Source of the DNA: Granulosicoccus antarcticus IMCC3135
Lineage (GTDB): Bacteria > Pseudomonadota > Gammaproteobacteria > Granulosicoccales > Granulosicoccaceae
DNA: 64,000 nt
Reading direction: 5' to 3'
Assembly (NCBI RefSeq): GCF_002215215.1
Contig: NZ_CP018632.1
Span: 5,452,501-5,516,500, forward strand
Numbering within the stretch: the first letter of the stretch is position 1; every line of letters begins with the position of its first letter. The translations under genes were made by a program, and so were the position numbers. Shown here in pieces: positions 1 to 11,276 of the stretch. The notes under the pieces were generated by a model, which was not told the origin of the DNA, ran no database searches, and was given only the letters and a program-made list of their open reading frames with translations.

Positions 1-1429
1 CATAGCCTCGCCCTGAATTCGACGCCAGAACATCTGCTTTCACCGCATCGGCATCGGCACCGGCATTGAATGCGATTCTTTCCAATGGCCGTGTCAGCAC
101 GGAACACAGTAGTTCTATCCCTGTACGTACATCGCCTTCATTGTCTGCACTTACCTCTTCCAGTTTATGACCAATCTGTGCCAGGGCAGTACCACCACCG
201 GCAACAACGCCATCCTCCGCAGCTGCTTGCACGGCACACAGCGAATCTTCGATCAATTGGATCTTGCGCTTCTGCTCTACTGGCGTGAACCCACCGACAC
301 TGATGACCGCCATGCCACCCGATAGTTTGGAGAGTCTCTCTCGTAATTTGTCCTGGTTGATATTGGGAGGCGAAGCATCATGCTGACGCTGGACTTGCGC
401 TTTTCTTGCCTTGATCGCAGCACTGTCGCCATTGCCACGAACAATACTGGTAAACGAGGAGCTGGCGATGACTCTTTCGGCACCACCCAGTTGCTTCAAA
501 GTAATGTTGTCGATGGTCTTGCCCAGATCACGCGCCACGACCTCTCCCCCTGTCAGGATGGCCAGATCATCCATCATGGCGGTGCGCCAATGCCCGTATT
601 CTGGTGGATGAACAATCAAGTATTTTCCGACACCATCATCGTCCATTAAAGAGACAACTACCGAGGGTGCAATTTCTTCGGCAATGATCAAGAGCGGACG
701 ACCTTCGCCCTGGGCAATCTCCCGTGCCTTGGCCAGATGGCTCGGATCAAGAATCTTGTGATCCGTCATGAGAATGAGTGGGTTCTCAAGCACCGCTTCC
801 ATCTTCTCTTCATTGGTCACCATATGGTGGGAAAGGTAGCCTCGTTCAAACGACATACCCTCGACGACATCAAGCGTGGTGTTGACAGTCACCGAGTAAT
901 CCGCACTAATGACCCCCTCCTTGCCCACTCGATGATAGGCCTCCGCCACCATGGCACCCAGCTTTGGATCTGTTGCAGCTACGGTAGCAACAGCAGTCAG
1001 ATACTCAGGGTGCTCATCGCAGCTGCGCGCGCTCTGCAAAAGCTCGTCAACGACAAGCTGTACGGCAATATCGATGCCTTTACATAGATCTACCGGCCTG
1101 ACTTTCCCGTCATTGATGTTCACGCCTTTTTGAATCAGTGCATTTGCCAATACCATGGCCGTCGTCGTGCCATCACCAGCCACCTCATTTGTCTGCATAG
1201 AGACTTCCCTGACAACTTGTGCCCCCATGTTCTCGAATCGGTCTGACAATTCAATCTCGCCAGCAATCGAGACACCGTCACGGGTCACAATGGGAGTACC
1301 TATCGGGCGGTCTACCATTGCATTGAGTCCTTTGGGCCCAAGCGTTGGTTCGACAGACGCTGCCAGTTGTGCGACCCCTTTTGCAAGAGCACGCCGTGCG
1401 TCGGAGCCGTGGAGAAGTAGCTTTGCCAT
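1..1429 (-). CDS. GroEL-like chaperonin of the monooxygenase operon (3' end outside window)
   Basis: About 476 residues are visible from the ATG at 1429 to the window edge without a stop; the C-terminus is missing. The N-terminal region (GSDARRALAKGV, LGPKGLNAMV) and the ATP-binding GDGTTTAMVL are those of group I chaperonins, as are the later GGMAVISVGG and AAAEDGVVAGGGTAL. Many positions differ from housekeeping GroEL, for example HPPEYGHWRTAMMDDLAILTG in the apical domain. It follows the coupling-protein gene by 227 bp with no groES in front. In Mycobacterium and Rhodococcus a divergent GroEL-like protein (MimG/PrmG) lies in the same position and is needed for productive folding of the hydroxylase alpha subunit. 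The same role here is inferred from position and divergence. Confidence 0.9.
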   Translation of the reverse strand, partial: MAKLLLHGSDARRALAKGVAQLAASVEPTLGPKGLNAMVDRPIGTPIVTRDGVSIAGEIELSDRFENMGAQVVREVSMQTNEVAGDGTTTAMVLANALIQKGVNINDGKVRPVDLCKGIDIAVQLVVDELLQSARSCDEHPEYLTAVATVAATDPKLGAMVAEAYHRVGKEGVISADYSVTVNTTLDVVEGMSFERGYLSHHMVTNEEKMEAVLENPLILMTDHKILDPSHLAKAREIAQGEGRPLLIIAEEIAPSVVVSLMDDDGVGKYLIVHPPEYGHWRTAMMDDLAILTGGEVVARDLGKTIDNITLKQLGGAERVIASSSFTSIVRGNGDSAAIKARKAQVQRQHDASPPNINQDKLRERLSKLSGGMAVISVGGFTPVEQKRKIQLIEDSLCAVQAAAEDGVVAGGGTALAQIGHKLEEVSADNEGDVRTGIELLCSVLTRPLERIAFNAGADADAVKADVLASNSGRGY

Positions 1430-1531
1430 AAAATTCAATTGTCCTTGAAGTAGCTGGAACGATCTGGCAGTTCCTGGATTCAGAGGCTGGCCTATTGACC
1501 GGATTCCCTGATATGAAGATAGAGTAAAACG

Positions 1532-1656: not shown

Positions 1657-2028
1657 TCACTCGATATACTCGAACATATCCTCCATGTTTCCATAGAGAA
1701 TGATGGTGTTCTCATCAACGCGGACCATGCGCCCATAGTGAGTGGACGTATTTACTTCAAAGATCTCCGCCGTCATTTCCCGACCCAGAAACTCACCGAT
1801 CTCATCCATCTTGAATACCAGCTTGCCTTCACCATCCACGCGTATGGTGGCCGGGTTATGAGTCACGGTTACCGCAGGGTCCTCGTCCATGAACTCGGCA
1901 ATGGCACGGGCCTCCACGGAATCATTCATTGTCACACCACATTGGTGTGAGATGGTTTGATCGAACTTGATGTCTTTCATCGACTTGAAGACATTCTGAT
2001 TTGTCGAATTACGCGCTGACTCTGACAT
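1657..2028 (-). CDS. prmD: MmoB/DmpM-type coupling (effector) protein of the di-iron monooxygenase
   Basis: This 123-residue soluble protein has no metal or flavin motif. It matches the MmoB/DmpM regulatory proteins that dock on the hydroxylase and control oxygen activation and electron transfer. The conserved core is CGVTMNDSVEARAIAEFM, then HNPATIRVDGEGKLVFKMDEI and a C-terminal EDMFEYIE. An AAGGAG sits 8 bp before the ATG. It lies 18 bp downstream of the beta-subunit gene, so the two are almost certainly cotranscribed. Family membership is clear. The symbol follows the propane monooxygenase naming; mimD would be equivalent, and the true substrate is unknown. Confidence 0.88.
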   Translation of the reverse strand: MSESARNSTNQNVFKSMKDIKFDQTISHQCGVTMNDSVEARAIAEFMDEDPAVTVTHNPATIRVDGEGKLVFKMDEIGEFLGREMTAEIFEVNTSTHYGRMVRVDENTIILYGNMEDMFEYIE

Positions 2029-2046: not shown

Positions 2047-3111
2047 TTAGCGGCTAAGGCCGAGTTCGCTCAGAATATGATCTACGCGTTCATGCGAGAT
2101 GGCTTTTACGTCCTGGAAAGACACAGGTTTGGAATGTGCCTGTGACCAGATCGGTTGCAAGCTGTTAGCAGCTTTCTCTGCCAAAGCACCATGCTTGTCG
2201 ACCCAGGACTGAAAGACGGATTTATTCTGCTCAGCAAACTGCTCATCATTAATCAGCACATACATCAGATCGATGGTGTTCGCCAGGTTGCGCTCGTAAT
2301 CAGCTTCGGCGGCAGAAATCACGGCGGGCGTCATGAAATCATTATTGGCAGCTGCTGCCTGCATCAGAAATCCTGAGCGAAACAACTCACCAACCAATGG
2401 CTCGAAGATGATGTTGATGGCGAAGTACTGCTCCAGATAATCTTCAGTTCCCATGATGGTTTCAATTGCTTCACGGCAACCTTGCCAAATGGGATCTTCC
2501 AACCATGCTTTCTTACCCAGCTCATCATCCCATCCCTCTATGTCCATACCGATTTCAGCAAGGAACAACGTGATGTCCTGTGACAAACGCAGCTTGTAGG
2601 ATGAATTGGTCAGTATTGCATTGTTGATCATCTGCGTATAACCATAACGCTGTGCTTGCATCAACGATGTTCCCAACCCAAACTCGACATGCTTCCAGGC
2701 ACTCATATGTGTTTTCAGGACCTTGTTCCAGGACTGATCTAAAGCCTTGTGTGCGCCCGTTTTTCGCGCATTGGAAACCACGCCCTGCACCATCGTTTCA
2801 ATTCTGGCTTGCCGCTGGTAGTGGGTTCTTTCCCATTCCTGATCGGGTGCACGGTAATCATGCCAATTGGAGCTCTTGATAGCCGTATCTTCCTTGCGAT
2901 ACGCACCAGCACCTTTGCCACCGCGAAAATCTATGATCCAGTCCTGTATCAGATAGCGCTCAGGATCCGGTTGAACGTCTACTGTGACATCCTCGTAGTG
3001 CGTTGCTCGCCTACCTCGCGGCTCAAAGTAGTTGTACTTTCTACTGTTGGAACCGACAAATGTTGCCGCGCCGGCTGCACCTGAGCCGACTGAACTGGAT
3101 GTTGCTACCAT
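2047..3111 (-). CDS. prmC: Di-iron monooxygenase hydroxylase, beta (small) subunit
   Basis: The protein has 354 residues, the usual size for the ferritin-like beta subunit of bacterial multicomponent monooxygenases. It lacks the paired ExxH iron ligands of the alpha subunit, as expected. The N-terminal SRKYNYFEPRGRRATHYEDV and the DWIIDFRGGKGAGAY segment are typical of PrmC/MimC. It packs against alpha in the (alpha-beta)2 hydroxylase. The start was set at 3111 because GGAG lies 6 bp upstream; an ATG four codons earlier has no such spacing. The gap to the reductase gene is 35 bp. Confidence 0.88.
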   Translation of the reverse strand: MVATSSSVGSGAAGAATFVGSNSRKYNYFEPRGRRATHYEDVTVDVQPDPERYLIQDWIIDFRGGKGAGAYRKEDTAIKSSNWHDYRAPDQEWERTHYQRQARIETMVQGVVSNARKTGAHKALDQSWNKVLKTHMSAWKHVEFGLGTSLMQAQRYGYTQMINNAILTNSSYKLRLSQDITLFLAEIGMDIEGWDDELGKKAWLEDPIWQGCREAIETIMGTEDYLEQYFAINIIFEPLVGELFRSGFLMQAAAANNDFMTPAVISAAEADYERNLANTIDLMYVLINDEQFAEQNKSVFQSWVDKHGALAEKAANSLQPIWSQAHSKPVSFQDVKAISHERVDHILSELGLSR

Positions 3112-3146
3112 GATAATCTCCACTGGGTATTGTTGATGATGGTTTG

Positions 3147-4208
3147 TTAGTGGACCGACGAGGAACCTGAAGTCGGTGTGAATTTGTCGAAGAAAATTCG
3201 ATCGGTTTCAAAATCATTCATGAACAGTATCGGTGCCAACGCTTCGATCATTGGCGGTGGCCCGCAAGCATAAACGTCACCTTGCCCCTGAATATCCAGT
3301 TCCTGAAGTCGACGCTCGACACTTTCGTGAACGAATCCACGCTCACCGGTCCAGTCTGAATCCTCTTCTGCATGACTGAGTACCGGTATGAATTCGACCA
3401 GAGGATATTGCTCGGTAAGACTTTTTATCTCCTCCAGCTTGATCAGATCATTCTCGGTACGTGCTCCGTAGAAGAATAGAATCTGCCTATCCTCTGCGCT
3501 CACCACCTGGTCGTTGAGAATGGACCAGACTGGCGACATACCGGAGCCAGCACCAACGAGAATAACTGGCCCTTCTCGCTCTTCACGCCTGAAGCACATT
3601 CCGAATGGGCCTGAAATACTGACGGAGGCACCTACTTTGATACCGCCATCGTCCAGTTCATTTGAAAATCGTCCATCAGGATATTTCTTGATAATGAATG
3701 ACAACTTCTGAGCTTCGCTGGGTGGGTTGGCCATGGAGAAGGAACGTGTAATCGTCTCTCCACCAGCTGTCGATACCGTGATATCCACGTACTGCCCTGC
3801 CCAGAACTTCAACGGCGCGTCTATCTCTATATCCACGCCACGAATATCATGTGAAAGAGCGCTGAAATCGACGATCTTGCCTTCGTAGGTTTTGACGGGA
3901 ATCGATCTGGACAACAACTCTTCATCAAAATTGAGCAACTCGATTTCGATATCACTATAGGCCTTGGTACAACACATCAGAATGTGGTCACTTTCTCGCT
4001 CGAAGTCATTCAATGCAAATGTTGAATGCTTGAGCAGTTCGATCTCACCTTCGAGCTTTATGCACTTACAAGCGGAGCATTGCCCCTCCTTGCACCCGTG
4101 AGGCAAGGCAATACCCTGTCGAAACGCAGCATCAAGAATTGTTTCATCTTCCTGGACTTCAAACTCCAGCCCTACCGGTTCCAACCGTACGTTATAGACT
4201 TCACTCAT
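3147..4208 (-). CDS. prmB: Monooxygenase reductase, [2Fe-2S]/FAD/NAD(P)H
   Basis: The reductase has 353 residues. The N-terminal plant-type ferredoxin domain carries Cys39, Cys44 and Cys47 (CKEGQCSACKC) with the fourth ligand at Cys79/80. It is followed by a ferredoxin-NADP reductase module: FAD-binding RSFSMANPP, nucleotide-binding GAGSGMSP, and the C-terminal YACGPPPMIEA loop. It passes electrons from NAD(P)H to the hydroxylase. The start at 4208 has AGGAG 9 bp upstream; a longer frame begins 11 codons earlier without such a site. The gene lies between alpha and beta, the order of prm and mim operons and unlike that of methane or toluene monooxygenases. Confidence 0.92.
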   Translation of the reverse strand: MSEVYNVRLEPVGLEFEVQEDETILDAAFRQGIALPHGCKEGQCSACKCIKLEGEIELLKHSTFALNDFERESDHILMCCTKAYSDIEIELLNFDEELLSRSIPVKTYEGKIVDFSALSHDIRGVDIEIDAPLKFWAGQYVDITVSTAGGETITRSFSMANPPSEAQKLSFIIKKYPDGRFSNELDDGGIKVGASVSISGPFGMCFRREEREGPVILVGAGSGMSPVWSILNDQVVSAEDRQILFFYGARTENDLIKLEEIKSLTEQYPLVEFIPVLSHAEEDSDWTGERGFVHESVERRLQELDIQGQGDVYACGPPPMIEALAPILFMNDFETDRIFFDKFTPTSGSSSVH

Positions 4209-4320
4209 ATCTAACAGCTCCTGAAATCGAATTCTCTGCAATTTTTATTGGGATGCGATGTGGTCGTGCGATGGCAGAGGCTCAACCCACCTCTGCGCAT
4301 CGCCTACTTCAAACGCAGAC

Positions 4321-5985
4321 TCAGTTGCAGGTGTTGATCGTGAATCCGGCTTGATATTCTTTGATATGAGCAACACGATCTGTGTCATTCATCGCTCGCA
4401 GCGCATTCAGCGGTGAAGTCATCGTATTACCGCGGATGTCATCCAGCTTCCACATGTCCTTATCGTCGAATCGCAGATGAGGTTGTGGTACCAGCGTCTT
4501 GCCATCTTCGCGTACAAAGTTGAGGTCCTTGACCACGTCGGCCAGATCCCAACCGTCATAAAGCGTTTCCCATTCGCGCTTGCCGGAGAACTCACCCATG
4601 GCAGGCGTAGCTCGACCCTGATACTCATCGGAGAAGGCTTCCACCGCTGTCCAGCGATCCAGTTCATGAGCGAACGTGTGCAACTTGCCGTCAATCGTAT
4701 CGACGACCATGTCCTCACGAATCAGGCACGGAACCAGGCAAGACCAGCAACGATGTGGGTATACATAACCCACCTCTTCATTGAACGCGAGCACCTTCTC
4801 ACCAGGCACACTCAGCTTTGCATACCATTTCCAATACTCACCGAACTCTGCATACCAACCTGGATACTTGTGCTCGAACCACTCAAAATCCTTATCGGTC
4901 TGAGCTTCAATACGCCAGAAATTCACGGGCCAGCCAACGGAGAAGAATTGCGCAACCTTGTGCACATAGCGTTTTTCGACAATGCGCTTCCAGGCCTCCT
5001 GAACATCATCGTGATGAACCTTGATTCCGTACTTTTCAAGCGGCAGCATATAGGTTCGATAGTAGTCTTCGAATATCCATCGATGCCACATCTCGGCATA
5101 AGACTCCTTATCCTTATCCCGATTGGTTGTGCCATATTCTATGAACGTGCCGACAGCCGCATCCACGATGGCGTGGTTCTGCCAGAATGCATAACGAAGA
5201 TCACGTTCGAGAAGCAGATGATTTTCAGGCTCTTTGAGCGCAGCCATCAACAGAGAGTGACCGTTTCCGATGTGCCGGCTTTCATCTGATTGAACCGACA
5301 GAAATACAGTCGGCAATGCATAGTCGCCATTTCGCGCCGCTTCGGAAGGCATGGCTACGAACAGTGTATTAGTGAAGGCTGTTTCTGCCACGACCGTCAA
5401 GTACATGCAGGCAGCTGTCATCGTGTCACCGGTAATGAATGCCTCACCAAACTGACGACCGATGGTAGTGGCATAACACTTGCCAAAAGCCTCTTCGGTG
5501 ATATCAAAACCTGCCGGATCGATATAGTTTTCCATATACCACTTTTTCAGATTCATCTGAATAGTGGAATGCCGGAATTCATCGACCATCTGCATGGTAA
5601 AACCTGTACGCAGCTCCTCACCCGGTGCAAGCCTGGCAACCATCGCCATCGAGCGGGCAGCGGATATTTCGGGAAACGGGATAATCGACAGAAACAGTTT
5701 CATCCATTCAATCCAACGCGGCTCTACGTTGCGGAACATATCGCCGCGCAACGCCGCATCCAGAGCGCCATAGACTCGATTGTCTTTCTCTTCTTCCATC
5801 GGAAAATAGGAGCGAAGCACCTGCTTCATCGGGTCACGTGGTGCTTTGGTGATCTTGTAGTCAGTGGGGTATGTACTGGCCTCCTGAACGTAGGTTGGAT
5901 TCCAACCCAGGTCCGCAATTTTCTTGGTCGCCTCGCCTACGGGAATGCCCCGTTGAGACGTGATCTTGTTTAGCGTAATTGCCAT
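4321..5985 (-). CDS. prmA: Di-iron monooxygenase hydroxylase, alpha (catalytic) subunit, propane/phenol type
   Basis: The catalytic subunit has 554 residues from MAITLNKI. All six carboxylate/histidine iron ligands are present: Glu106, Glu136-x-x-His139, Glu201 and Glu235-x-x-His238. Their spacing is the same as in methane monooxygenase (114/144/147/209/243/246 shifted by 8). FPMEEEKDNRVYGA, IIPFPEISAAR and EYGTTNRDKDKESYAEMW are hallmarks of the Prm/Mim group, which hydroxylates propane, acetone or phenol depending on the member. The frame continues 32 codons upstream, but AAGGAG lies 11 bp before the ATG at 5985 and family proteins start nearby. It is the first gene of the operon; 112 bp separate it from the reductase gene. 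The natural substrate cannot be read from sequence. Confidence 0.93.
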   Translation of the reverse strand: MAITLNKITSQRGIPVGEATKKIADLGWNPTYVQEASTYPTDYKITKAPRDPMKQVLRSYFPMEEEKDNRVYGALDAALRGDMFRNVEPRWIEWMKLFLSIIPFPEISAARSMAMVARLAPGEELRTGFTMQMVDEFRHSTIQMNLKKWYMENYIDPAGFDITEEAFGKCYATTIGRQFGEAFITGDTMTAACMYLTVVAETAFTNTLFVAMPSEAARNGDYALPTVFLSVQSDESRHIGNGHSLLMAALKEPENHLLLERDLRYAFWQNHAIVDAAVGTFIEYGTTNRDKDKESYAEMWHRWIFEDYYRTYMLPLEKYGIKVHHDDVQEAWKRIVEKRYVHKVAQFFSVGWPVNFWRIEAQTDKDFEWFEHKYPGWYAEFGEYWKWYAKLSVPGEKVLAFNEEVGYVYPHRCWSCLVPCLIREDMVVDTIDGKLHTFAHELDRWTAVEAFSDEYQGRATPAMGEFSGKREWETLYDGWDLADVVKDLNFVREDGKTLVPQPHLRFDDKDMWKLDDIRGNTMTSPLNALRAMNDTDRVAHIKEYQAGFTINTCN

Positions 5986-6196
5986 AAGGCATGTATCTCC
6001 TTCTGCTGAGTCCGTTAATGCAGGGTTGATGGAAGCAATCTTTGCTGCCAATTCATGCGACCTGAAGTACGCGCTTTTCATCGGTATCAGTAAGGGGCGA
6101 TGATCTTGTCGCTCAGTTCACGACACTCACAGTATTGGGGAATCAATCGTTGTGCAACGACGTATTCAAGGCCACATTCACAGCGGGAAATTCACG

Positions 6197-6336
6197 CAGT
6201 TGTGTAACTGTAAGCCTGCTGTATCAGCATTTGTAACGTATCGTTACAGCGTGAATCATTCTGAAACAGTTTTCAGATGAAGCAGATCAGTATGTAACGA
6301 CAATGCGGGGTCGGATCTGCATTATATCGATGTAAC
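6197..6336. promoter_or_regulatory. TGTAAC repeat array upstream of the monooxygenase operon
   Basis: TGTAAC occurs at 6203-6208, 6232-6237, 6293-6298 and 6331-6336, and its complement GTTACA at 6243-6248. The middle pair forms the perfect inverted repeat TGTAACG-TAT-CGTTACA (6232-6248). CAGTT/AACTG (6197-6210) and CTGAAA/TTTCAG (6261-6276) are further short inverted repeats. Chance would give about 0.07 copies of a given hexamer in this length. The array lies 210-350 bp upstream of prmA, a typical enhancer distance for AAA+ activators, so it is a candidate site for the regulator at 9219. The rest of 5986-6755 is AT-rich, with no gene I trust and no canonical -24/-12 promoter. Confidence 0.5.
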
Positions 6337-6755: not shown

Positions 6756-7034
6756 ATGACTGGTGAATCAAACACTATAGAGAGCCTAATGCTCCAGCGA
6801 GCGGAGTTGATCGGCAAGCTATCTCAGGCAACTGCGGAACATATGCGCATACTGCGAGTGAGTAGCGGAATTGATGTTCTATTGATGAAACAGCCGCAAT
6901 CTCCCGAAGACATCAAGAGTAAGTCGGAAACAGAGGCCAGAATCACCAACAGCCAGTCTCATGTAGATATGCTTGAGGCCAGCCTTGCAGTAATAGACAA
7001 CAACATTGAAACTACTTTGAATTCGGAGGCATGA
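6756..7034 (+). CDS. Small helical protein of unknown function
   Basis: The 92-residue product is not recognised. It is rich in Glu, Leu, Ser and Ala with heptad-like spacing (LMLQRAELIGKLSQATAEHM, then EARITNSQSHVDMLEASLAVI), suggesting two helices that could form a coiled-coil hairpin. There is no signal peptide or membrane segment. GAGG lies 9 bp before the ATG. The stop is 1 bp from the start of the WD40 gene, whose ribosome-binding site GGAGG lies inside this reading frame, so translational coupling is likely. It is the first gene of a divergent set facing away from the monooxygenase operon. Confidence 0.7.
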   Translation: MTGESNTIESLMLQRAELIGKLSQATAEHMRILRVSSGIDVLLMKQPQSPEDIKSKSETEARITNSQSHVDMLEASLAVIDNNIETTLNSEA

Positions 7035-7035
7035 A

Positions 7036-8169
7036 ATGGTGGGTAACCGTTCCGCAGGAACTTCTCTTTTTGATTTATTGGCAAGAGCATGGACTCTGGA
7101 TGACGAGGTTGTGCAAACAGGTTTCAACCGAGCCGATTCAGCAGTCTACTTCCGTCTTCAGTCAGGAAAGCTTGCTCTGGCAACTACCAGGGATTCGGAA
7201 AGTCCCAAAAGCCGCACTCGTATAGAAACTGATACCGGACGTACAACTATTCGCCAGCGGGAAAATCCAATTCCAGAAGCCAGGATCATCCCTATCGCGC
7301 TGAATGCCGAACTGCCAATCGTACGTTTCGGAGAAAACGGGTTCATGGCTGTTGACGCCGATGGTGTTCCACATCAGATAACAGCGCAGGGTCAGTGCAT
7401 TGAGAAGGCCAACTCGATTGTCGGACCACAGATCACATCACTATGCAGTGATCGCAGCGGCGAGACTCTGGCAATTGCGGGACCGTTGTCGATCTGTGTT
7501 TACAAAGCAAGCAGTCTGCAGGTACTGGCTGAAATAGATATAGAACGTCATATCAGCTGTATGGCATTCTCTGCCGACGGTGAACAACTGGCTGCCTGGG
7601 GCGAAGGCTCTCTGACACTGATTGACAAGAAAAACCCTGCGAGCGCTATACACCATATAGATGGCATCAATGAGGTCAGTCAAATCAACTGGGATAGCTC
7701 AGGGAATTACCTCTCATGCACCGCCAATACTCATGCATTCTGGATCGTCGATGCCAATGCGGGGACAGCCCGGATAATTGAAGGATATCCCGGCAAGGTC
7801 AAAATTGCCACTTTCAATGAGGCCGGCAAGGCGCTCGTCACATCCGGTGCATTCCGACTCGCTGGATGGTCGACAGAGGATTTGCCCGGCAAAGACCATC
7901 CAGGCACCCCACTATCCTCTGGCAAACCGGGAATGGTCATTGTCAATACGCTCGCAGCTCACCCAAAGCGAAGCCTTGTGGCGGTAGGGTATCCCGATGG
8001 TCTGGTCACCATAAGCAGTGTCGGTACTCCCGAGGAAATGATGGTGCATAAGGAGAACGGTACTGAAGTCAATGATCTGGCCTGGTCGGACACCGGCGAA
8101 CACCTGAGCATTGCTTTCAAATCCGGTAAAGCCGCCGTCGTGACCTTCCCTGACAAACTTTTCAAATAA
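7036..8169 (+). CDS. WD40-like beta-propeller protein, unknown role
   Basis: This 377-residue protein has an N-terminal helical part (about residues 1-90) and at least six repeated blades in the rest. Each blade contains a turn such as DRSGETLAIAG, SADGEQLAAWG, DSSGNYLSCTA, NEAGKALVTSG or SDTGEHLSIAF followed by a beta strand, as in WD40 or related propellers. No signal peptide is present, so it is probably cytoplasmic. Propellers of this kind are usually protein-docking platforms; no catalytic motif is seen. GGAGG lies 6 bp before the ATG. Flanking small genes appear to belong to the same transcript. Any link with the monooxygenase is based on position alone. Confidence 0.8.
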   Translation: MVGNRSAGTSLFDLLARAWTLDDEVVQTGFNRADSAVYFRLQSGKLALATTRDSESPKSRTRIETDTGRTTIRQRENPIPEARIIPIALNAELPIVRFGENGFMAVDADGVPHQITAQGQCIEKANSIVGPQITSLCSDRSGETLAIAGPLSICVYKASSLQVLAEIDIERHISCMAFSADGEQLAAWGEGSLTLIDKKNPASAIHHIDGINEVSQINWDSSGNYLSCTANTHAFWIVDANAGTARIIEGYPGKVKIATFNEAGKALVTSGAFRLAGWSTEDLPGKDHPGTPLSSGKPGMVIVNTLAAHPKRSLVAVGYPDGLVTISSVGTPEEMMVHKENGTEVNDLAWSDTGEHLSIAFKSGKAAVVTFPDKLFK

Positions 8170-8551: not shown

Positions 8552-8687
8552 TAACAGTGTTTACATTGCGATATAAGTAAGATAACCTGATTTTTCGTGT
8601 ATAGCGATTGGGGGATCTTCTTGTCCGCACCTCAATCCCGATACCAGCCCTCGTGATTTGAAGTGGCTGCACATTAAGGACAGTTTT

Positions 8688-9170
8688 ATGGTCGATATCA
8701 TCTCCAGAAAATCAGGACCACGACGTGAAGATGTCGATGCCAAACGGGTCATCAACAAGAACTGGCCAACAATCAGTCGCCTTGCAGATCAGATCAGTAA
8801 CGGTGGATATTCTCGATCCCGCAAAACTCTGGCCGAGGCAAAGAAAAGCCCTGCACCATTGCAATCGAACCTTCACATAGTCGGTGGATCCAGCAAGACT
8901 CTGACCCCCGAACCCATGGTGCGGGTCAGCATGAATAATCGCGTCATTGTCATGGATGTACGGTCCGGCAAACAGCTGGATTATCTAGGCGCAATTCGTT
9001 TTCAGGGAAACCAGAAATATTTTGCTCTGGCGACCAGCGCAAATGATTTCTTTGCAACCGTTGACGAAGAGACAGAACAGAAGCTTGCTGACCTGGATGG
9101 CGTGGTAATCGAATCCGATGAAATCCAGCTGAAATTCATCGAAGTTATCAAAAACAGACTCGACATATAG
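8688..9170 (+). CDS. Hypothetical protein
   Basis: The 160-residue product starts at MVDIISRK; AAGGA lies 9 bp before this ATG, while an ATG ten codons earlier lacks such a site. The N-terminal half is basic and Ser-rich. The C-terminal half (from about residue 75) looks like a compact alpha/beta domain (NRVIVMDVRSGKQLDYLGAI, then FALATSANDFFATV). There is no signal peptide, membrane segment or recognised family. It lies between the WD40 cassette and the activator gene, on the same strand as both. Confidence 0.7.
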   Translation: MVDIISRKSGPRREDVDAKRVINKNWPTISRLADQISNGGYSRSRKTLAEAKKSPAPLQSNLHIVGGSSKTLTPEPMVRVSMNNRVIVMDVRSGKQLDYLGAIRFQGNQKYFALATSANDFFATVDEETEQKLADLDGVVIESDEIQLKFIEVIKNRLDI

Positions 9171-9218: not shown

Positions 9219-11276
9219 GTGACCACTTCTCTCGAAGAAACCAGAAAAATGCGCACAAACTACTGCAGCGCTCAAAGACGAAAGACTGCATCATCCAGCA
9301 GGGAAGCTGAGTATCACCACTATGACACCATGCGCGCATGGGAAAGTTTTGTAGATGGAAATATTGCGAGCGTAGAACTCGAAAAAACAGTTCGTCCTGA
9401 AATACTGGCAAGCTGGGCACGATGCTCCACATCCGGAGTCAGTGCTCTGGCCAGTTCGTCACCTCGACGGGTTGATGAAAACCACATCAATACATTGAGA
9501 CGAAAGAATCGCCATTTGTGTGAAGCGGCCAGTGCCGCCTTTGACCGGTTAGCCCCCCATCTTTGCGGGACCGGCGCAATTCTGATACTGACCGATCCAG
9601 AGGGCACCATCATCGATGTCATCGGTGATGCCCAGACCCTGGACCTGGGACGTGAGATTCATCTGGAAGTCGGCGGTGCCTGGGATGAGCAGGTTATCGG
9701 AACCAACGGTATCGGCACCGCCTTGCGCACCGGCAAGCCAACGTATGTACATGCATCGGAGCACTTTTGCCAGGGCATCAAATCCTGGACCTGTGTCGGC
9801 GTTCCTATCATTGATGCATTGGACCGATCAGTGATTGGGGTTATAGATCTGTCTGGCCCGTCCAGCATTCATCAACCACATAATGTCGCTTTGGTCGTCT
9901 CTACCGCGAGAGAAATCGAATTACATCTGGCTCATCGACAACGTGAAGAACACACAACCTTACTGGAAGAATTCATTGGCAATCCCAGACGTCATGACAG
10001 CAGCAGCGTCATCGTCCTGCTGAATAGCAGCGGTAAGGTGGTATTCAGCCGCAACACAGAGCAATTGGAGCTGGACGGATTCGGACGCTTTGATGCCGGC
10101 ACTCAGCTGCTCGACCTGTACCCCGATATGTCTGTTCGAGAGCTGGAAGCGGCATTGCCACCCGCCCTGCCAACCAAGGATATCGACCTCATCAAGGCAG
10201 GTGGAGAGACTCAAGGCGTTGCCTTGATATTCCATAACCAGTCAGCATCACTGCCACCGCGCTTTTCCAGCGCAGGTATTTCCATAAAACCGCGCTCAGG
10301 CGTTCAGGAGGATGAAGTCAACATCGTCGGCGAATGCCCGAAGATGCAGGAAGCCATCGAGTTTGCCTATCGCGCTGCGGAAATGAAAGTGCCTGTATTG
10401 ATACAGGGCGAAACAGGTGTCGGCAAGGAAATGTTTGCACGCTTGATACATAGCCATCTGGCGAACAGAACAACACCTTATGTCGTCGTCAACTGCGCCA
10501 CCTTATCGTCGGAGTTGATCAGAAACGAGCTGTTCGGTCACGTCGTGGAAGCCCATCCGGGATTCTCTCGTGAAGACAAACTGGGTAAATTCGAAAGAGC
10601 CAATGGAGGCGTACTCTGTCTTGATGAAGTCGGCGATATGCCCATTGAACTTCAGACGTTTCTGCTGCGCACTCTTGAACAACGTGCAATCTACCGGGTA
10701 GGCTGCGATATCCGGCGACCGATCGATGTACAGCATATCGCCATGACAAGCCGAAATATTCGCGAAGATATTATCAACGGTCGGTTCCGCCAGGATCTGT
10801 TCTACCGCATTGGAACCATCGTCATCGAGATCCCGCCGCTTCGTGAGCGTGGTCAGGATCTGGATCGGCTGATCGATTATTTCAATGAGAAATTATCCAG
10901 AAAATTCGGCCGTGAAAAACTTAGATTCGATGCAGCAACCATCAGTGCGCTTCATCAATATCGATGGCCTGGAAACGTTCGTGAACTGCGCAATATCATT
11001 GAACGGCTCTGCCTGTTGAACCATAAAAGTATTGTATCGGCATCGGATTTACCTGAAGAGATTGCCAACCCGAATTCGAACGCATTCCTGTCCGGCAATG
11101 AGCCTTCCATGTCATTGAACAATCCCATGGATCTGGACGAACTCGAGTCAATCGCCATTCAACGTACCATTGATAGAGAAAAAGGCAATTTATCCAAAGT
11201 GGCCACGGCACTCGGAATATCACGACCAACCTTGTATCGAAAAATCAAAGGCTATGGTTTGAATCGCAACAAATAG
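9219..11276 (+). CDS. AcoR/MimR-type AAA+ enhancer-binding transcriptional activator with degenerate GAFTGA loop
   Basis: The protein has 685 residues. A GAF-type sensor (about 100-240, with NGIGTALRTGKPTYV and EHFCQGIKSW) is typical of AcoR-like activators. The AAA+ domain (about 365-590) has Walker A GETGVGKE (397-404) and Walker B LCLDEVGDM (467-474), then NGRFRQDLFYRI and LRERGQDL. A Fis-type helix-turn-helix lies near 655-680 (GNLSKVATALGISRPTLYRKI). The sigma-54-contacting motif GAFTGA is replaced by EAHPGF (444-449). This class senses ketones, diols or phenols, and MimR controls mim operons in mycobacteria. It probably controls the prm operon. The start is uncertain: GTG 9219 was used, but ATG at 9249 or 9330 is possible. 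Confidence 0.88.
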   Translation: MTTSLEETRKMRTNYCSAQRRKTASSSREAEYHHYDTMRAWESFVDGNIASVELEKTVRPEILASWARCSTSGVSALASSSPRRVDENHINTLRRKNRHLCEAASAAFDRLAPHLCGTGAILILTDPEGTIIDVIGDAQTLDLGREIHLEVGGAWDEQVIGTNGIGTALRTGKPTYVHASEHFCQGIKSWTCVGVPIIDALDRSVIGVIDLSGPSSIHQPHNVALVVSTAREIELHLAHRQREEHTTLLEEFIGNPRRHDSSSVIVLLNSSGKVVFSRNTEQLELDGFGRFDAGTQLLDLYPDMSVRELEAALPPALPTKDIDLIKAGGETQGVALIFHNQSASLPPRFSSAGISIKPRSGVQEDEVNIVGECPKMQEAIEFAYRAAEMKVPVLIQGETGVGKEMFARLIHSHLANRTTPYVVVNCATLSSELIRNELFGHVVEAHPGFSREDKLGKFERANGGVLCLDEVGDMPIELQTFLLRTLEQRAIYRVGCDIRRPIDVQHIAMTSRNIREDIINGRFRQDLFYRIGTIVIEIPPLRERGQDLDRLIDYFNEKLSRKFGREKLRFDAATISALHQYRWPGNVRELRNIIERLCLLNHKSIVSASDLPEEIANPNSNAFLSGNEPSMSLNNPMDLDELESIAIQRTIDREKGNLSKVATALGISRPTLYRKIKGYGLNRNK

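Follow-up and report, generated by a model that had tools for sequence, protein, structure and literature searches.

Members of the sigma-54 activator family that do not carry a working GAFTGA motif have been described before. Francke et al. (2011) named TyrR, DhaR, HupR, VpsR and YplP as such cases, and listed about 110 others whose motif deviates slightly, Thr to Pro being the preferred change at position 4 (PMC3162934). The NtrC proteins of R. capsulatus and Caulobacter are AAA+ activators without GAFTGA at sigma-70 promoters, and in the R. capsulatus protein ATP binding, not hydrolysis, was needed (PMC10274813). Given the precedents of TyrR, DhaR, HupR, VpsR, YplP and NtrC, the GAFTGA-less kind is already known. 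To our knowledge such relatives have been on record for decades, mostly as old families that no longer reveal an ancestor using sigma-54 at the same target. What is new in the case presented here, from Granulosicoccus antarcticus IMCC3135, is a recent, graded loss linked to a transfer, for which the dyad, the target and orthologs that still have GAFTGA can all be inspected. It is a natural and still young case of regulatory rewiring in bacteria. A literature search, in which subscription journals were mostly not covered, found no earlier reports on prm regulation in Granulosicoccus.

The regulator and the prm operon

The window, by which we mean the whole stretch of 64,000 nucleotides that was analysed, comes from a genome of 7.78 Mb in a single contig. 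The regulator gene and the prm operon are located on opposite strands. The regulator has the following features:

9219..11276, plus strand: regulator gene, 685 amino acids, GTG start; GAF at residues 105-236, AAA+ at 369-536, lid at 542-621, Fis-type HTH at 639-679
10407..10430, plus strand: Walker A, GETGVGKE, intact (read from the sequence, alignment)
10548..10565, plus strand: EAHPGF replacing GAFTGA, L1 loop, residues 444-449 (codons read directly, column alignment)
10620..10637, plus strand: Walker B, LDEVGD, intact (read from the sequence, alignment)
10743..10757, plus strand: sensor I region, MTSRN (all four Granulosicoccus have S where the relatives have N511)
10785..10808, plus strand: arginine-finger segment, FRQDLFYR, intact (read from the sequence, alignment)
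11220..11243, plus strand: HTH recognition segment, SRPTLYRK (in a 25-sequence alignment S668 varies and R669-R674 are invariant)

The Pfam matches of the protein were Sigma54_activat (PF00158, 176 bits), AAA_lid_14, GAF and HTH_8, and the motif WPGNVREL is also present. FRQDLFYR, the arginine-finger segment by analogy with PspF and NtrC1, is kept in the orthologs together with Walker A, Walker B, WPGNVREL and SRPTLYRK, with single-residue variation only. An earlier note on this DNA had held that the remaining AAA+ domain (Walker A and B, sensor region) and the HTH are intact, and the motifs, read directly and kept in the orthologs, bear this out. The protein has the domain order GAF-AAA+-Fis, is orthologous to prm-linked regulators and lies next to prm; it is of the type of the prm/mim operon regulators, with an AcoR/DhaR-like architecture. 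Its AlphaFold model had a mean pLDDT of 76 (62 in the block that bears the loop) and a pTM of 0.64. The structural matches of the AAA+ part were FleQ (Z 23.7), NtrC1 (22.8), PspF (21.3) and VpsR (21.2), and the top match of the N-terminal sensor part was DhaR(N) (Z 23.7, rmsd 2.8, 199 aligned).

The operon under study comprises:

1..1438, minus strand: GroEL-like chaperonin (by reading), extending 209 bases past the window start (L015 18293-19939)
1657..2028, minus strand: prmD-like coupling protein reading frame (by position and reading)
2047..3123, minus strand: prmC-like hydroxylase beta reading frame (by position and reading)
3147..4241, minus strand: prmB-like reductase reading frame (by position and reading)
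4321..5985, minus strand: prmA, hydroxylase alpha; the reading frame extends to 6081, the start is most likely 5985

As read from the sequence, the real start of prmA is very probably at 5985, where MAITLNKI follows AAGGAG, and not at 6081, because the frame of G408 (another Granulosicoccus genome, see below) and of the loci L043 and L039 is closed by a stop ahead of the conserved Met. The stretch 5986-6081 makes the reading frame over-long by 32 codons (96 nt).

Several neighbouring genes can be mentioned here. A gene for a WD40-repeat protein recurs beside prm, at 7036-8169 (plus strand) in the window, at L126 10507-11607 and at L128 24431-25546 (Granulosicoccus, Caballeronia and Bradyrhizobium). 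Two small reading frames are found between prmA and the regulator, 6756-7034 and 8658-9170, both on the plus strand; in a Pfam search the latter had no match at 0.001 and the former a sub-threshold match only. Just downstream of the prm region of the same genome (L015 13392-15586) there are three tandem, nearly identical lipoprotein-like reading frames of 232 amino acids.

Loss of the GAFTGA motif

The codons of the open frame at the loop read exactly as the earlier note had claimed (...NELFGHVV-EAHPGF-SREDKLGKF...). We searched for the regulator and for PrmA in 48 genomes of the Granulosicoccaceae. Both were found in four, all Granulosicoccus, with the loop EAHPGF in G000 (the genome of the window), DAFKDA in G408, DSLAGS in G410 and DAYASA in G411. 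All frames are open. The N-terminus of the G408 regulator is cut by a contig end, and its loop retains A, F and A of the motif at positions 2, 3 and 6, respectively. Outside the genus, G[AS][FY]TGA is kept in 44 of 44 near-complete prm-linked orthologs from alpha- and betaproteobacteria. This set combines four plasmid loci with the 40 of 79 non-Granulosicoccus loci whose flank contained a near-complete regulator free of stops; L032, which runs into a stop, was left out, and the 79 loci, which also supplied most of the promoter set described below, belong to the best 80 of 479 prm loci. Besides, 12 other regulator loci of the same family and class retain GAFTGA, GAYTGA or GAFNGA, indicating that there is no general loss of the motif in the genus.

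In the AAA+ domain, 85 columns are at least 95% invariant in the 44 orthologs, and 19 of them are altered in at least one Granulosicoccus, including all six loop columns (hypergeometric 6e-5 for the enrichment, with columns treated as independent). Two more changes are common to all four genomes, G453 to D just past the loop and the N511 to S of the sensor I region. Among the four, loop identity was 17-50%, as compared with 75-95% for the remaining AAA+ segment, while the loops were identical in 223 of 223 outside pairs with an AAA+ identity of at least 75%. Between G000 and G411 the dN was 0.61 in codons 443-450 (eight codons only) and 0.021 in codons 451-536, with dS values of 1.1-1.2 in both. 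At 414 in the AAA+ domain there is one further stretch of six residues that varies as much as the loop. Judging from these alignments, the loop is freed from constraint while the surrounding machine remains constrained.

The four loop sequences appear random, as could be expected from a sequencing error or a decaying pseudogene. This explanation was rejected, and its probability is close to nil: the frame is open and the motif absent in all four orthologs of the genus, so that a sequencing error does not account for it, and dN/dS is far below 1 outside the loop. The earlier note had pointed to a sequencing error restoring GAFTGA as what would refute its claim, and this too is excluded by the four genomes. 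Residue 447, the T of GAFTGA, is P, A, A and K across the four. In PspF the change T86A alone abolished closed-complex engagement and left the ATPase activity unchanged (PMC4132715), and with T447 replaced the regulator should, by the same token, retain its ATPase and lose sigma-54.

The prmA promoter

In order to have a reference outside the genus we used 58 prmA upstream regions, from 54 of the 79 loci plus the four plasmid loci; 25 loci were excluded by hand, mainly close Mesorhizobium relatives and also L028, L055, L088, L089 and L091. The weights for scoring -24/-12 and -35/-10 elements are approximations. A -24/-12 score of at least 9 was reached in 56 of the 58 regions (shuffles 12%) and of at least 12 in 40 (shuffles 2%), and the pattern is partly retained in the two exceptions scoring below 9, L044 and L060. 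The four Granulosicoccus regions scored 2.8, 4.4, 7.5 and 5.6, with shuffle P values of 0.61, 0.46, 0.23 and 0.17, and none stands out. The first is the best score upstream of prmA in the window, and the 7.5 belongs to a -24/-12-like site retained in G410. When the whole 64-kb window was scanned with up to two mismatches, there was no -24/-12 match between 4933 and 25718, so that the statement of the earlier note that no canonical -24/-12 is found upstream of prmA holds. A sigma-54 site missed because of its position was considered and rejected, as none appears within 700 bp before the prmA reading frame, nor near prmA in the scan of the whole window.

RpoN, with its RpoN box ARRTVAKYRE, is intact in all four genomes, indicating that the change is local and not a general loss of sigma-54. 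With the motif gone in four out of four genomes, the -24/-12 promoter gone and RpoN intact, the loss of the sigma-54 contact that the earlier note had claimed is supported, and the loss of sigma-54 control of prm strongly so. The intact RpoN would also fit a regulator that still uses sigma-54 by way of an altered loop and an atypical promoter, and the residues that G408 keeps at loop positions 2, 3 and 6 and the G410 site scoring 7.5 point the same way. However, a new contact is hard to square with four different loops, none of them keeps T447, the upstream regions are at shuffle level and one change within the motif is mostly enough to destroy activity (Francke et al., 2011; PMC3162934), all of which makes continued use of sigma-54 very improbable.

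A consensus scan for -35/-10 elements found none, with 0.9 expected. The elements upstream of prmA that deserve mention are:

6129..6157, minus strand: weak candidate -35/-10, TTGCAC-17-TACTGT (position kept in G000, G410 and G411; at another distance in G408)
6207..6216, minus strand: alternative -10-like element, CTTACAGT, weak candidate, directly downstream of the dyad
6232..6248, no strand assigned: putative binding site of the regulator, TGTAACGATACGTTACA, a perfect dyad lying 247-263 nt upstream of the start codon of prmA

Both candidate promoters are weak and ambiguous and we take them as leads only. The one at 6129-6157 is not claimed as a sigma-70 promoter since it is weak and partly overlaps leader sequence common to relatives. 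These leaders have features of their own. In alphaproteobacteria (e.g. L024) about 270 nt separate the sigma-54 promoter from the start codon of prmA, with AAGAACGAAGG in 52 of the 58 regions, an invariant CGAAGG/CCTTTG pairing at a distance of about 90-100 nt and a short hairpin preceding the ribosome site. The pairing being invariant, covariation neither supports nor refutes it, and an Rfam search with the leaders of L023, L024 and L031 gave no match. The four Granulosicoccus leaders are without the AAGAACGAAGGA word and keep the 3' part.

A conserved dyad before prmA

The word CGTTACA/TGTAACG is present in 44 of 54 outside prmA upstream regions. The dyad TGTAAC-N5-GTTACA is matched at 10 or more of its 12 positions in 35 of 58 (shuffles 0.8%), a significance that is inflated outside Granulosicoccus because the pattern was defined from words enriched in the same regions. 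Within the genus it is kept despite differing flanking sequence, with 12/12 positions in G000, G410 and G411 and 10/12 in G408. In all 35 outside regions the dyad lies upstream of the sigma-54 promoter (median 151 bp), an arrangement expected of a site for an upstream activator. Measured in seven relatives, the distance from the end of the -12 element to the start codon was 273-283 nt, so the Granulosicoccus dyad is now approximately where the promoter used to be. From these sequences, the regulator probably binds the dyad.

The only perfect dyad in the 7.8 Mb genome is the one before prmA, a figure near chance (0.5 expected). Sites within one mismatch were fewer than in the reversed control (7 vs 24 places), so that no wider regulon is seen in its own genome. 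The genome-wide -24/-12 matches were not above their reversed control either, and for this reason neither count is used as support. The promoter architecture has been rebuilt, which could mean that prm is no longer under the regulator, the operon being constitutive or otherwise regulated and the protein having other targets; with one perfect dyad in the genome, binding elsewhere would need other sites. We consider this improbable, given that the only perfect dyad precedes prmA and is kept in four genomes with differing flanks, and that the gene is still beside prm in G000, G410 and G411.

The main rival to activation is repression. The regulator could have turned into a prm repressor similar to TyrR, with binding at the dyad blocking a sigma-70 promoter and a ligand of the GAF domain releasing it. 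The sigma-54 loop would not be needed for this either, the dyad is close to the gene and the alternative -10-like element comes directly after it. However, where relatives share this dyad and the HTH helix, the dyad is upstream of a sigma-54 promoter, in an activator position, the scan gave no strong promoter that would need repressing, and the ATPase core is kept. Repression is, on this evidence, unlikely but worth keeping in mind.

Origin of the cluster

The regulators of the four Granulosicoccus genomes form one clade (100/100), nested in the roseobacters through forks with supports of 100/99, 100/97, 100/98 and 97/89, and the tree was alike when the columns around the loop were removed. 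In the PrmA tree all four are also within the roseobacter group, with G408 not united with the other three; its PrmA is 95.9% identical to an alphaproteobacterial PrmA and 91% to that of G000. The regulator and prmA of G408 are on different contigs, while the regulator adjoins prm in the other three genomes. Two PrmA pieces are found in G408 (contigs C150 and C187), 92% and 89% identical to that of the window, possibly two copies. The simplest account of these trees would be a cross-class transfer from a roseobacter-like alphaproteobacterium to Granulosicoccus followed by the loss, and one or more transfers of prmA are possible. The losses of loop and promoter are one phylogenetic event, and their association is therefore not replicated.

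A model for prm regulation

What was observed is the loss of motif and promoter, the kept dyad and core, the single clade and the transfer. Building on this, we consider it likely that the regulator activates prm independently of sigma-54, probably with a sigma-70-type polymerase, after the transfer and the loss of loop and promoter. A Granulosicoccus ancestor (Gammaproteobacteria) would have received a propane-monooxygenase-type cluster with its regulator from a roseobacter-like alphaproteobacterium. The sigma-54-engaging loop would have disappeared in the stem lineage of Granulosicoccus and then drifted freely, with sensor, ATPase core and DNA-binding helix under strong constraint, and the -24/-12 promoter of prmA would have been lost along with it. 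The dyad is now some 250 nt upstream of the start of prmA, close to the place that the sigma-54 promoter occupies in the relatives. Most likely the regulator still binds TGTAAC-N5-GTTACA and oligomerises with ATP, and it would recruit sigma-70-type RNA polymerase to prmA by direct contact from this nearby position. Such a mechanism, ATP-dependent assembly plus contact with a sigma-70-type polymerase, is likely by analogy with NtrC of R. capsulatus. Binding to the dyad, the use of sigma-70, activation rather than repression and the need for ATP are what we infer here; the suggestion of the earlier note, sigma-70 activation or repression, keeps that same standing, the -35/-10 consensus scan having found none.

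A wider proposal is more tentative. A complete sigma-54 circuit may have been transferred across classes and converted to sigma-70 control in one genus. Its ATPase would then drive an activator of the housekeeping polymerase or license it through ATP-dependent assembly, and the loops from DAFKDA to EAHPGF may represent a graded decay across the four species. The case raises the question of what a conserved ATPase does once sigma-54 is gone. With orthologs at about 60% identity, a shared DNA site, the same target and four states of decay, the order of events in a switch of sigma factor becomes testable. The automatic annotation of this regulator gene as 'sigma-54-dependent' is wrong.

Comparison with known systems

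The best NCBIfam match of the regulator is DhaR of E. coli, at 315.1 bits and below the DhaR equivalog cut-off of 551. Both proteins are without a working GAFTGA, and DhaR is sigma-70 dependent (PMC3162934); it differs in serving another operon, and it is not known to derive from a regulator with GAFTGA that acted on the same target. The NtrC proteins of R. capsulatus and Caulobacter are response regulators in which L1 is deleted (PMC10274813), whereas in Granulosicoccus the length of L1 is kept and its residues are substituted differently in each species. The change from Thr to Pro at position 4 preferred among the homologs of Francke et al. (2011; PMC3162934) is seen in EAHPGF too. VpsR of V. 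cholerae, a structural match with Z 21.2, is another AAA+ regulator without GAFTGA, named as a sigma-70 regulator in PMC10274813 (spelled VspR); it differs in being linked to c-di-GMP and in having a deletion within the motif (PMC3162934). The Granulosicoccus regulator thus has in common with TyrR, DhaR, HupR, the R. capsulatus NtrC and VpsR that GAFTGA is defective or deleted and the AAA+ fold kept.

The comparison with MimR that the earlier note had proposed was run on the plasmid regulator of Rhodococcus aetherivorans (L124 21822-23567), a MimR-like protein and the only prm-linked regulator from actinobacteria that was read over its whole length. It has a GAF-like N-terminus and HTH_8, its Sigma54_activat match of 11.9 bits is below the cut-off, and its AAA+ domain is degenerate throughout. 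It is likewise prm-linked and without sigma-54 function, but there the whole AAA+ domain has degenerated, while in Granulosicoccus the loop alone was lost. To judge from this one sequence, the actinobacterial decay is a different route to the same end.

The closest systems are the prm/mim-linked sigma-54 activators of alpha- and betaproteobacteria (e.g. L024 of Roseovarius aestuarii, 62% identity), which have the same domains, recognition helix, dyad and target operon with GroEL. They carry G[AS][FY]TGA in 44 of 44 cases, and 56 of 58 regions have a -24/-12 promoter, whereas Granulosicoccus has neither.
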